DNA of 64,000 nt from Chitinophagales bacterium. Lineage in GTDB: Bacteria; Bacteroidota; Bacteroidia; Chitinophagales; CAIODY01. The stretch lies in contig CANGEV010000001.1 in NCBI GenBank assembly GCA_947452995.1, forward strand, positions 186,001 through 250,000, in the 5' to 3' direction. The position numbers and the translations under genes are program-made. Shown here in pieces: positions 2,988-62,192 of this stretch. Below the pieces are notes generated by a model. The model made no database searches. It saw nothing but the letters and a program-made list of their open reading frames with translations, and had not been told where the DNA came from. The number at the start of each line of letters is the position of its first letter. Position 1 is the stretch's first letter.

Positions 2988-3182
2988 TTACGCGTTTTGG
3001 TTGTGATATTTTCCACGTACGTGAATAGCCTTCAATACTTCTTTACGACGTACAACGGAAGGTTTCACAAAAGCTTGACGAGAACGCAATTCCTTAACGG
3101 TTTGAGTACGGTCAAATTTCTTTTTGTACTTCTTCAACAACTTATCTACTGTGTCGCAATCTTTGTTGGAAATAATCAACAT
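2988..3182 (-). CDS. rpsU: 30S ribosomal protein S21
   Basis: 64-residue basic protein starting MLIISNKDCDTVDKLLKKYK, with the S21 pattern of a short beta segment followed by a Lys/Arg-rich helix (RRKEVLKA). S21 binds the 30S platform near the anti-Shine-Dalgarno end of 16S rRNA. It is first in a minus-strand unit with xerC 33 nt downstream. A TATATTTG -7 box lies 31 nt upstream. Size is typical for Bacteroidota S21. Confidence 0.95.
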   Translation of the reverse strand: MLIISNKDCDTVDKLLKKYKKKFDRTQTVKELRSRQAFVKPSVVRRKEVLKAIHVRGKYHNQNA

Positions 3183-58076: not shown

Positions 58077-59573
58077 TTATTCAGGGGCAGTCCAAGTACG
58101 AGTGCGAACGAATTCTACACTCTTCACCATATCATCGTGGAACACGCGATCTTCGGTAATAAATGGTACCACTTTACGATATTCAGCGCGTATAGCTTCA
58201 ATTGCTGGAGAAGACTTCAAAGGCTTTCTAAAGTCGAGTGCTTGTACAGCGGTTAACAATTCAATAGCCAATACACGTTCGGTATTGTACATAACACGCA
58301 CACATTTCGTAGCTGCATTTGCGCCCATGCTCACATGATCCTCTTGACCGTTACAACTAACGATACTATCTACCGAAGCTGGGGTACATAATTGTTTACT
58401 TTGACTAACGATAGCAGCAGCTGTATATTGTGGAATCATTAAACCACAATTCAAACCTGGCTTATCCACTAAGAAGACAGGCAAGTTACGTCCACCATTC
58501 AACATCTGATAGATACGACGTTCTGAGATATTTGCCAATTCAGCGACCGCAATAGCAAGGAAGTCAAGATGCAAAGCAAGTGGCTGTCCGTGGAAATTAC
58601 CACCAGAAAGGATACGATCATTGGCAGGATCTACGATAGGATTATCTGTTACGGAGTTGATTTCTGTTTCGACAACGCGGATTACTTGTGCAATAGCATC
58701 TTTGCTTGCACCATGAACTTGCGGCACGCAACGGAAGCTGTAAGGGTCTTGAACTTGCTGTTTGGCTTGTTGAATAATTTCAGAGCCTTTCAACCATTTC
58801 AAGATGTTTTGGCCTGTATGAATTTGTCCAGCATGCGGACGAATTAAATGAATGGTATCCGTGAATGGTTCTGCTTTTGAGTCATATCCATCAACTGAAA
58901 TAGCAGTCACAGCATCTGCAAGCTCGAGTAGATCCATTGCTTTAAACAAGCAGAAACAAGCATGCGCGCTCATAAATTGTGTTCCGTTCAATAGAGCCAA
59001 TCCTTCTTTAGATTGCAACACAACGGGTGTAGCACCGATTGCTTTCAAAGCTTCTACGGCAGGCATTCTTTTACCTTTCAAATAACAATCGCCAATGCCC
59101 ATCATAGCAAGTGCCATGTGCGCTAAAGGAGCAAGGTCACCAGAAGCGCCTAATGAACCTTGTTCATAGATGATAGGCAGTAAATCTTCATTATAACATT
59201 TGATTAGCAATTCCACTGTTTCTAGGCAGATACCTGAATAGCCATAGCTTAGGGATTGCGCCTTGAGAATAAGTAGTAGGCGGGTAATTTCTGGATCAAT
59301 TTCGTCTCCGATACCGCAAGCCGTGCTCACGACCAATTTATATTGTAAATCTTCTAATTCATCCGGACTCACACGTACGTTACAAAGGGAGCCAAAACCA
59401 GTGTTGATACCGTAGTAAAGGCGTTCAACGTCAGCCAATTTGGTTTCTAGAAACTGGCGACAATGCATTATTTGTTTTTTGCTTTCTTCTGAAATCGTCA
59501 AGGGAATGCGATTTTTCCAAATATGACGAAGTTGAGTAATAGAAAGATGTTGATTAGAAATTGCGTGCGACAT
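58077..59573 (-). CDS. hutH: Histidine ammonia-lyase
   Basis: 498 residues. Turns L-histidine to trans-urocanate and ammonia. The A143-S144-G145 triad in GSLGASGDLAPLAHM forms the MIO prosthetic group; YYGINTGFGS near 53-62 holds the catalytic Tyr. Other hut genes (hutU, hutI) are not in the window. It is 11 nt after the RsmB-like gene and shares a direction with the small helical gene, so a joint transcript is likely, although the products have no obvious pathway link. Confidence 0.95.
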   Translation of the reverse strand: MSHAISNQHLSITQLRHIWKNRIPLTISEESKKQIMHCRQFLETKLADVERLYYGINTGFGSLCNVRVSPDELEDLQYKLVVSTACGIGDEIDPEITRLLLILKAQSLSYGYSGICLETVELLIKCYNEDLLPIIYEQGSLGASGDLAPLAHMALAMMGIGDCYLKGKRMPAVEALKAIGATPVVLQSKEGLALLNGTQFMSAHACFCLFKAMDLLELADAVTAISVDGYDSKAEPFTDTIHLIRPHAGQIHTGQNILKWLKGSEIIQQAKQQVQDPYSFRCVPQVHGASKDAIAQVIRVVETEINSVTDNPIVDPANDRILSGGNFHGQPLALHLDFLAIAVAELANISERRIYQMLNGGRNLPVFLVDKPGLNCGLMIPQYTAAAIVSQSKQLCTPASVDSIVSCNGQEDHVSMGANAATKCVRVMYNTERVLAIELLTAVQALDFRKPLKSSPAIEAIRAEYRKVVPFITEDRVFHDDMVKSVEFVRTRTWTAPE

Positions 59574-59584
59574 ACAAAATAATT

Positions 59585-60790
59585 TTATTTCTTTTTAACG
59601 AGTCGAGTCATAAAAAAGCCATCGGAATCATGTTCAGAAGGATAGATATACTTTTCTTCTTCTAGCGTAAACTCTGGGTGGTGAGCAAGGAATTTTTGAA
59701 TTTGACCTTCATTTTCCACTGCTAATAAAGAGCAAGTAGCATATACCATTTTACCACCGGGCTTGAGCATAGTGCTATAACGTTCTAGAATATCTTCTTG
59801 TACTTTTAAAAGGCGTTCGACATATTCTTTATTAACGCGATATTTTGAATCAGGGTTTCGACGTATTACGCCACTTCCAGAACAAGGCACATCAAGCAGT
59901 AGACGATCGGCTTGTTCGGCGAGGCGTTTGATAACCTTAGTAGAGTCTATCAAGCGGGGTTCAACAATAGAAACTCCATTTTTACGTGAGCGACGAGTAA
60001 GTTCTTCCAATTTACGAGGCTCAACATCCATAGAGATAATTCGTCCACGGTTATTCATCAATGCAGCAAGGTGTAGTGATTTTCCTCCTGCACCGGCACA
60101 AGCATCAATAACACGCATACCTGGCTCCACTTGTAAAAAAGGGGCAATCATTTGCGAACCGATATCTTGAATTTCAAAGAGACCGCTTCGTAAAAGTGGA
60201 TGCGTATTTAAATGCTTTTTAGACATTAATTTTATCGGTCCATTTTCATAAAGTTCCATATACGGAAATTCAGCTTCCTCCAAAGCCTTTTTGAGTGTAT
60301 AGGAAGAAGCTTTTAGTGTATTTACACGAAGGTATACAGGAGCGGGACGATTCATTGCCTCCAATTCATTTCTCCACACCTCCTCTCCGAGAGATGCAAC
60401 ACCTAGCTCATCCATCTCGTCTTGCAATGAGAACCATTCCGCGCGTGTCATGTCTTTTTCTTGCAAAGGCACCCAACGTTCCTTCATCCCTGCAAACTCC
60501 TTCCAAGCGGGCAATTCACCGCCTTTTAACTGCCAATAAACTGCAAAAAGTTGATATAATGAGCGAATGTCTAGCGCTGGTTCTTCCTCCAAATGACGCC
60601 ACAAACGACGCCAATGGCGAACTATATCAAAGGTAGATTCTGCAACAAAAGAGCGATCTCTACTCCCCCATTTCGGGTTATTTTTCATTCGAAAAAGAAT
60701 CACACGGTCTAAGGGGCGACCATCCCGGAATACATCCTGAAGAGATAAAATTACCTCACTCACTAAATTGGGAAACAGTTTATTATTCAT
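59585..60790 (-). CDS. RsmB/NOP2-like rRNA cytosine-5 methyltransferase
   Basis: 401 residues from ATG 60790; the longer frame starts from a TTG at 60802 inside the -7 box TATTTTTG and is not a real start. SAM-binding core around VIDACAGAGGKSLHLA, and both catalytic cysteines are visible: C in LLDVPCSGSGVIRRNPD (motif IV) and C in VYATCSLL (motif VI). An N-terminal RNA-binding region (about 1-150) precedes the enzyme domain. Rsm/NOP family; the target base in Bacteroidota rRNA is not assigned by sequence. Confidence 0.9.
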   Translation of the reverse strand: MNNKLFPNLVSEVILSLQDVFRDGRPLDRVILFRMKNNPKWGSRDRSFVAESTFDIVRHWRRLWRHLEEEPALDIRSLYQLFAVYWQLKGGELPAWKEFAGMKERWVPLQEKDMTRAEWFSLQDEMDELGVASLGEEVWRNELEAMNRPAPVYLRVNTLKASSYTLKKALEEAEFPYMELYENGPIKLMSKKHLNTHPLLRSGLFEIQDIGSQMIAPFLQVEPGMRVIDACAGAGGKSLHLAALMNNRGRIISMDVEPRKLEELTRRSRKNGVSIVEPRLIDSTKVIKRLAEQADRLLLDVPCSGSGVIRRNPDSKYRVNKEYVERLLKVQEDILERYSTMLKPGGKMVYATCSLLAVENEGQIQKFLAHHPEFTLEEEKYIYPSEHDSDGFFMTRLVKKK

Positions 60791-60799
60791 TGTATAGCA

Positions 60800-60807
60800 C
60801 AAAAATA
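60800..60807 (-). promoter_or_regulatory. -7 box of the RsmB-like/hutH string
   Basis: TATTTTTG on the minus strand, a perfect TAnnTTTG match, 9 nt before the ATG at 60790. It overlaps the longer frame's TTG start. Confidence 0.6.
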
Positions 60808-60841
60808 CAAAAAGGAAGGCGGATTATTGAATTTACAAATC

Positions 60842-61026
60842 AAGCGTTAAGTGAGTCCGTATAATAGAATTTTATTGTACTTGTAATCCCTCTAATTTGA
60901 ATGCATTTTTGTATTGTTGATTCAATCAACCCTGTTAATTCTACCTTTTTAACGCTTATTAAAACTAGGAAACAGGAAATTACCCGGCTCAGAGACTCCT
61001 TAAAATATCTGCAGTCGGGTTTTTTC
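60842..61026 (+). ncRNA. Candidate structured small RNA (unassigned)
   Basis: The 403-bp gap 60803-61205 has no plausible coding frame. It contains nested inverted repeats: AAGCGTTAA (60842-60850) with TTAACGCTT (60949-60957), inside it TAGAATT (60865-60871) with AATTCTA (60937-60943), and inside that TTGAAT (60897-60902) with ATTCAA (60920-60925), plus GTTGATT/AATCAAC around 60923. A plus-strand intrinsic terminator follows (60982-61028). The downstream isomerase has its own box at 61176-61183, so this would be an independent transcript of about 185 nt. No Rfam family recognised by eye. Confidence 0.4.
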
Positions 61027-61028
61027 TT
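60982..61028 (+). terminator. Intrinsic terminator of the candidate small RNA
   Basis: ACCCGGCT...AGTCGGGT stem (60982-60989 with 61013-61020), with internal CAGA/TCTG pairing, followed by TTTTTTCTTTT. Plus-strand orientation with no plus-strand gene upstream. Confidence 0.7.
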
Positions 61029-61175
61029 TTAGTGTTAAATAAAAATTTATTGTGATGCTTTTATTCACAATAAGTATAATGCATGTCAATTATTAACAAG
61101 TCAAAATCTGCAAATCATTACCTTCAATAAAAATTCAATTTCTAGAAAAAGCAGGCGAAATGCCTTCTTTTTTAT

Positions 61176-61183
61176 TAACTTTA
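61176..61183 (+). promoter_or_regulatory. -7-like box upstream of the isomerase gene
   Basis: TAACTTTA, 22 nt before the ATG at 61206. The same octamer precedes genes at 10443, 21126 and 55384. Confidence 0.45.
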
Positions 61184-61205: not shown

Positions 61206-62192
61206 ATGATGGACCAACTTATCGCCCGATTTGATGTGCAGCTGAAAGAAGCATTGGCGATTGCAAAAGAAATCGAACTTAAAATTAAGACTAAAGATAT
61301 TCAGCATATTGTTATCAGTGGTCTTGGTGGCTCAGGAATTGGAGGTAGTATCGCACAAGAACTATTGGCCTCGGATTGTCCTTTACCAATACTTGTAACA
61401 AAAGACTACTCCTTACCTGCTTATGTTGGTAAAAACACCCTTGTAATAGCCTGTTCTTATAGCGGGAATACTGAAGAAACATTAAGCGCACTTGAAATTG
61501 CCTTTAAAAAGAAATCACAAATCATTTGCATCTCAAGTGGCGGCAAAATGGCTGAGTGGGCCTTTAAAAAGAAAAAAGATTTTGTTTTAATCCCTGGAGG
61601 AATGCCCCCACGCGCATGTGTGGGCTATTCATTAGTGCAATTGCTGAGCATATTTAAAAGGCTGAAATTGACTAAAATGTCAGTAGAAAAGGATGTTTTG
61701 GAATCTATAGCCCTCCTGCAAAAAGAACAAAAAAACATAGTAAAGCAAGCACAAAAACTAGCAAAGCATCTTTCGGATAAAACACCAGTAATTTACGCTG
61801 CTGCAGGAACAGAAGGCGTTGCTATTCGTTTCCGTCAACAAATCAATGAAAATGGAAAGCAATTATGTTGGCATCATGTTTTACCAGAGATGAATCACAA
61901 TGAATTGGTTGCTTGGCGTGATAAAAACCCTAATCTTGCTGTCGTATTCTTACGTCACCCATTCGATCATCCGCGAACACAAGTCCGCATGAAATTGAAT
62001 CAAACAGTCATTAAAAAATGCACCCCACATATCACTGAAATTCACTCTAAAGGTGAGAGCGTTTTAGCGCGTCAGTTTTATCTAATTCATTTGACGGATT
62101 GGGTGAGTTTCTATCTTTCACAAGAAAGAAACTACGATTGTGTAGAAGTAAAAGTTATTGATTGGTTAAAAGCAGAATTGGCAAAAGCCTAA
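61206..62192 (+). CDS. Bifunctional phosphoglucose/phosphomannose isomerase
   Basis: 328 residues of the SIS-domain family that interconverts glucose-6-phosphate or mannose-6-phosphate with fructose-6-phosphate. First SIS domain: GLGGSGIGGSIAQEL and VIACSYSGNTEETL; second SIS domain: YAAAGTEGVAIRFRQQINENGK; the catalytic Glu/His region is LPEMNHNELVAW. Length fits. ATG 61206 versus the next codon's ATG at 61209 is not distinguishable. It overlaps the convergent murF by 4 nt. Confidence 0.9.
   Translation: MMDQLIARFDVQLKEALAIAKEIELKIKTKDIQHIVISGLGGSGIGGSIAQELLASDCPLPILVTKDYSLPAYVGKNTLVIACSYSGNTEETLSALEIAFKKKSQIICISSGGKMAEWAFKKKKDFVLIPGGMPPRACVGYSLVQLLSIFKRLKLTKMSVEKDVLESIALLQKEQKNIVKQAQKLAKHLSDKTPVIYAAAGTEGVAIRFRQQINENGKQLCWHHVLPEMNHNELVAWRDKNPNLAVVFLRHPFDHPRTQVRMKLNQTVIKKCTPHITEIHSKGESVLARQFYLIHLTDWVSFYLSQERNYDCVEVKVIDWLKAELAKA

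Follow-up and report, generated by a model that had tools for sequence, protein, structure and literature searches.

The window, by which we mean the whole stretch of 64,000 nucleotides that was analysed, belongs to the 2.54 Mb assembly (36 contigs; host genome, G000) of a Chitinophagales bacterium. Close to its right end a rsmB-like gene on the minus strand and an isomerase gene on the plus strand enclose a gap of 403 nt. An initial annotation of this DNA had proposed a small RNA in the gap, beginning at 60842, held together by nested complementary pairs and ending in a terminator, with no plus-strand gene upstream. The last point is correct, as the upstream gene runs on the minus strand. Judged from its sequence features, the most likely content of the gap is a genuine small RNA gene, some 110 bases long, that carries a promoter and a terminator of its own. 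The promoter, the terminator, the conserved stretch of about 110 nt and the fold all speak for such a gene, while its start is to be placed near 60916 and not at 60842. Conservation was assessed mainly by alignment of the window to the genome of a sister species from the same genus (G002), and a third congener (G001) was used for comparison. The features of the locus are as follows:

58080–59573: next gene beyond rsmB, histidine ammonia-lyase (by eye only)
59585–60790, minus: RsmB/F-type 16S rRNA methyltransferase (rsmB-like), divergent flanking gene
60850–60864, plus: conserved 15-bp element AGTGAGTCCGTATAA, spanning −66 to −52 relative to the predicted start (14 of 15 positions identical in G002)
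60881–60883, plus: −33 promoter element (TTG in the window; TTTG at 60880–60883 in G002)
60904–60911, plus: −7 promoter element (CATTTTTG in the window, with one mismatch to TAHHTTTG; CATCTTTG in both G002 and G001)
60916–61025, plus: predicted small RNA of about 110 nt (promoter-derived start, conservation, fold)
60916–60930, plus: hairpin 1, a 6-bp stem with a 3-nt loop that forms the predicted 5′ end (predicted fold; all 6 pairs retained in G002)
60931–60976, plus: hairpin 2, 6 + 5 + 6 bp with internal loops and the apical loop CGCUUA (predicted fold; 17 of 17 pairs unchanged in G002)
60982–61029, plus: intrinsic terminator, stem of 8 + 4 bp with a bulge (predicted fold; all 12 pairs retained in G002)
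61206–62192, plus: bifunctional phosphoglucose/phosphomannose isomerase, downstream gene

Predicted promoters, terminator and fold

The promoter consensus of the Bacteroidota is given as TTTG / TANNTTTG, with the G of the −7 box at position −5 (PMC6847099). In the gap, a TTG is followed after 20 nt by CATTTTTG, which deviates from the consensus at its first T, and this layout is kept in G002 and G001. Since the G of the −7 box sits at −5 in the published consensus, the transcriptional start is predicted at 60916, a position that coincides with the first base of hairpin 1. The 15-bp element further upstream may be a regulator-binding or UP-like site for the RNA gene; it is alignable and partly kept in G001. 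A 14-mer taken from it has its sole exact match in the window at this position, and 3 matches were found at up to two mismatches, compared to 0.48 expected.

The plus-oriented terminator with a T-run reported by the initial annotation was found at about 60982–61029. It consists of a stem-loop part (60982–61020) and a T-rich tail (61020–61029), and its loop contains CUCCUUAAAAU. A simple terminator scan that considers loops of 3–8 bases did not list it. When the sequence from 60914 to 61027 was folded, none of 200 shuffled sequences was equally stable (z −5.1), and a z-score of −3.3 was obtained for the fold without the terminator. For the longer stretch 60830–61028 the z-score was −4.0, with 1 of 200 shuffles equally stable, and the reverse strand of the same stretch showed an ordinary fold (z −0.5). 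The terminator loop CUCCUUAAAAU and the other loops are predicted to be open.

Two further boxes lie at the borders of the gap. One is a consensus −7 box that immediately precedes rsmB on the minus strand (TATTTTTG, 60800–60807) and is located in a block that is identical in G002. Considering this box together with the promoter of the RNA, two promoters appear to diverge within the gap. On the plus strand, the box ahead of the isomerase gene, to which the initial annotation had rightly pointed, is TAACTTTA at 61176–61183. It has one mismatch to TAHHTTTG and is kept in G002, and G001 has TACTTTTG at its place. The isomerase gene therefore seems to have a promoter of its own, and its mRNA probably starts from this box.

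Conservation in two congeners

Between the window and G002, 106 of the 110 positions of the predicted RNA (60916–61025) are identical, and within the body of the RNA 101 of 104 positions are unchanged across stems and loops alike. This block has abrupt ends. The 60-nt blocks just past the T-run show 38–47% identity in a gapped alignment of differing length, and the block just upstream of the RNA is 65% identical in a patchy manner. Downstream of the 15-bp element, identity drops to 3 of 9 positions at 60865–60873, rises to 9 of 11 about the −33 element, falls again to 6 of 19 across the spacer, and reaches 7 of 8 within the −7 box and 4 of 4 from there to the start. Patchy blocks upstream, followed by one unbroken block, suggest the pattern of a promoter and its transcript.

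The third codon positions are 52.1% identical in the isomerase gene, 53.9% in rsmB and 63.6% in the gene at 58080–59573. With values of 52–54% in both flanking genes, silent sites have thus changed to a great extent, while the RNA has remained almost unchanged. High identity alone is not unique to the RNA, since a coding stretch is equally conserved: in about 6 kb aligned to G002, the best 122-nt window starts at 58443 within the gene at 58080–59573 and reaches 96.7%, and the 200 best windows of this length start only at 58360–58559 or at 60880–60939. What distinguishes the RNA is identity that is non-coding and ends abruptly.

All 35 predicted pairs (6 + 17 + 12) are kept in G002. The three substitutions in the body are located in the loop of hairpin 1 (60923) and at two paired positions where pairing is preserved: at 60929 in hairpin 1 an A is replaced by a G, which turns a U-A into a U-G pair, and at 60987 in the terminator a G-U pair becomes A-U. 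Two-sided changes in the predicted pairs were not found in the comparison with G002, and neither hairpin 1 nor hairpin 2 is predicted when the G001 sequence is folded, so that covariation lends no support to these two hairpins.

In G001 the gap is flanked by the same two genes. The promoter region lies at the same place and resembles that of the window more than any of 500 shuffles (z 6.1), while the body of the RNA shows weak similarity (z 2.1), a level that 11 of 500 shuffles reach. In the terminator stem of G001, formed by CCGUUGUC and GACAACGG, the letters differ but pairing is complete, and the loop keeps CCUUAAA. The T-run is not visible, because a run of N follows directly after the terminator stem. 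G001 may carry either a diverged version of the window's RNA or another RNA that has taken its place behind this promoter.

Family searches and spread

Rfam was searched over the entire window and, under permissive settings, over the gap. No family reached its cut-off in the gap, in agreement with the initial annotation, which had recognised neither a known riboswitch nor 6S RNA. The best match below threshold was AsxR (RF02703) at 60953–61025. Its score of 25.8 bits (E-value 0.078) remains far under the family cut-off of 63, and the match extends mainly over the terminator; we do not count AsxR as a relative. RNase P RNA was detected by Rfam elsewhere in the window. The candidate is not SRP RNA (RF00169), since the SRP RNA of this genome is located elsewhere (third contig of G000, C3, positions 153524–153621) and none was found in the gap.

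For 6S RNA (RF00013) and 6S-Flavo (RF01685), no match was obtained in the gap or in the genome, and in the gap no 6S match appeared at E-values up to 10. RF00013 was undetected in 40 of 40 genomes of the order, the host genome included, so its absence here says little; RF01685 also matched no control genome. The 6S RNA of this order would be either very divergent or missing.

To follow the spread of the RNA, two covariance models were built, R1 from the window and G002, and R2 from the window, G001 and G002. Among 298 genomes of the order R1 matched two, the window's own genome and G002, and missed G001. R2 found the three congeners in 40 relatives, all by construction, and three weak matches with E-values of 0.16–0.84. 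In 395 genomes of the class R2 gave a single match, the window's own, G001 and G002 presumably being outside this sample. The larger searches with both models used stricter filters. Over 15 loci beside relatives of rsmB or of the isomerase gene, R1 produced one match (E 2.2). By eye, no comparable unit was seen at the rsmB flanks of three further genomes (G003–G005) or in isomerase upstream regions (with locus L007 excluded). BLAST in phages and plasmids gave no match, and one 28-mer of the candidate, searched as an exact string, was absent from viral contigs. As far as these searches see, the sRNA appears confined to this genus, although distant relatives could be missed.

The three weak R2 matches lie in other families (L042, 1501–1605; L043, 1501–1593; L044, 1501–1597), and each has a −7-like box with CAACC 15 nt after it. 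As true copies of the RNA they were rejected: mainly the promoter box and CAACC are shared, in an alignment that the model itself dictates, and the similarity is probably due to chance.

Function and alternative readings

We regard it as fairly probable that the region 60881–61029 forms a stand-alone gene whose product, an untranslated RNA of about 110 nt, would most likely act in trans on mRNAs without Hfq. The housekeeping RNA polymerase of the Bacteroidota would start this RNA at about 60916 from the −33/−7 promoter, and the transcript would end at the intrinsic terminator (60982–61029). The folded RNA would consist of a short hairpin at its 5′ end, a second, longer one and that of the terminator. 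Accessible stretches, chiefly the terminator loop CUCCUUAAAAU and the loop of hairpin 2, would most likely pair with distant target mRNAs and thereby change their translation or stability without the help of Hfq; a hfq gene was not detected in the host genome. We infer transcription, the exact ends, trans-acting base pairing and the targets.

Plain duplex energies, in which accessibility is not included, were calculated against 47 genes of the window (one edge gene was skipped). The best value was −25.3 (mean −17.2, standard deviation 4.5), with −21.0 for rsmB and −15.9 for the isomerase gene, and no clear outlier emerged as a target among the genes of the window. Trans-acting base pairing is thus a prior for RNAs of this kind and not a result of the target scan. 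Taken together, the RNA is probably an orphan intergenic sRNA that acts in trans.

Small RNAs of such a kind are ordinary in this phylum. Intergenic sRNAs of Bacteroidetes with their own start site and an intrinsic terminator have been described, and for one of them, GibS of Bacteroides thetaiotaomicron, an organism without an obvious Hfq, targets have been identified (PMC7366714). The RNA described here resembles GibS and the high-confidence sRNAs of B. thetaiotaomicron presented in that source in being intergenic, in having its own start and terminator (both predicted in our case) and in the lack of an obvious Hfq. The likeness is one of description, and unlike GibS this RNA has no identified targets. 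The Rfp RNAs of Flavobacterium psychrophilum are independent short non-coding transcripts, some of which, as described in PMC9723704, are likewise conserved within the genus and strongly folded. Rfp18, for example, is likened by description too, but it stems from another group of organisms and has been reported to take part in the expression of proteases (PMC9723704). A literature search, with most subscription journals outside its reach, found no sRNA paper for Chitinophagales, Chitinophaga or Chitinophagia. The finding adds a probable small RNA gene, unnamed and well delimited, in a genus of the Chitinophagales.

The RNA might instead be structural or protein-binding, either as a 6S-like regulator of RNA polymerase or as a sponge for an RNA-binding protein. 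This is rather unlikely, even if the near identity of the body to G002 in stems and loops alike would fit such a role. It shares with 6S RNA and 6S-Flavo a strong fold and conservation, its size is close to the 108 positions of the RF01685 model, and the host genome shows no match to either model. As set out above, this absence says little, considering that RF00013 is absent in all 40 genomes and that RF01685 matched no control. 6S RNA is laid out as a single long rod that opens into a large bubble at its centre. Against the structural reading stand the three hairpins in series predicted here, as do the lack of a 6S match in the gap and a body that is barely recognisable in G001.

An unlikely reading takes the transcript as a cis-acting leader of the isomerase gene, either attenuator or riboswitch, in which hairpins 1 and 2 would control read-through of the terminator. 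The isomerase gene is on the same strand about 175 bases downstream, and hairpins followed by a terminator form the layout of an attenuator. The simple terminator scan also found another terminator-like hairpin, again followed by a T-run, at 61153–61165 (plus strand), just ahead of the box at 61176–61183. At the equivalent position of G002, a differing hairpin with a T-run was seen by eye. This second hairpin may insulate the isomerase gene or end longer transcripts, and it could mean that transcripts sometimes pass the first terminator; its position before the isomerase gene keeps the leader reading alive. Against a leader argue the stretch between terminator and gene, which is poorly conserved and variable in length in G002, and the apparent promoter of the isomerase gene itself. 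Moreover, no competing antiterminator fold was present among the six lowest-energy structures, and no Rfam riboswitch reached cut-off in the window, the cobalamin riboswitch giving a weak match of 15.1 bits against 50 (E 2.9).

We consider it very unlikely that the RNA belongs to a new, genus-specific class of structural RNAs, bound to a protein or to the ribosome, with a CUCCUU loop that mimics the 3′ tail of 16S rRNA. The CUCCUU of the terminator loop does resemble the anti-Shine-Dalgarno tail at the 16S rRNA 3′ end, and constraint over the whole length instead of a seed would mean that the RNA works bound to protein or ribosome. Shine-Dalgarno sequences are rarely used by mRNAs of this phylum. 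An extended Shine-Dalgarno sequence of rpsU has been reported for many Flavobacteriales (PMC9976891). As the obvious base-pairing target of the CUCCUU loop, the Shine-Dalgarno sequence of rpsU was considered and rejected, as no AAGGAG was seen by eye in the rpsU leaders of five genomes (rpsU was found in 5 of 6). The rpsU gene of the host (2988–3182, minus strand) and those of four relatives are, by eye, without an extended Shine-Dalgarno sequence.

That the transcript is a short mRNA for a peptide of 43 residues (ATG at 60901, TAG at 61030–61032) is highly improbable: the frame is open from the promoter to past the terminator in the window and in G002, and in G001 up to the terminator loop, but its ATG precedes the predicted transcript start and is missing in G002, which leaves no conserved start codon, two of the three body substitutions alter a residue, and in G001 the residues are largely different and some gaps would shift the frame, their lengths not being divisible by three.

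Equally little weight can be given to an RNA that starts at 60842 and is closed by stems of 9 and 7 bp, the structure originally suggested. The three nested pairs are all present in the sequence: 9 bp (AAGCGTTAA; 60842–60850 with 60949–60957), 7 bp (60865–60871 with 60937–60943) and 6 bp (60916–60921 with 60925–60930). In the minimum-energy fold of 60830–61028 the 9-bp pairing forms, in an extended version that closes the structure, and so does the 6-bp pairing, but the 7-bp stem is missing from it. As RNA structure, solely the 6-bp pairing stands, being the stem of hairpin 1; the 9- and 7-bp stems are no part of the RNA. Their 3′ arms pair inside hairpin 2, and the predicted promoter begins only downstream of both 5′ arms. 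The paired segments fared differently in G002, where all 6 pairs of the shortest stem are left, compared to 5 of 9 and 3 of 7 in the two longer ones, which are both broken although their 3′ arms are unchanged there. A chance inverted repeat beside a real RNA gene can thus mislead, and a single sister genome fixes the likely borders. The 9-bp repeat had been judged unlikely by chance; after dinucleotide shuffling of the 403-nt gap, 147 of 300 sequences contained a repeat of 9 bp or longer within 130 nt, so that it is no evidence for an RNA. A repeat of at least 10 bp occurred in 48 of the 300 shuffles, and the real gap contains three repeats of at least 9 bp, two others of 9–10 bp besides the one originally noted.
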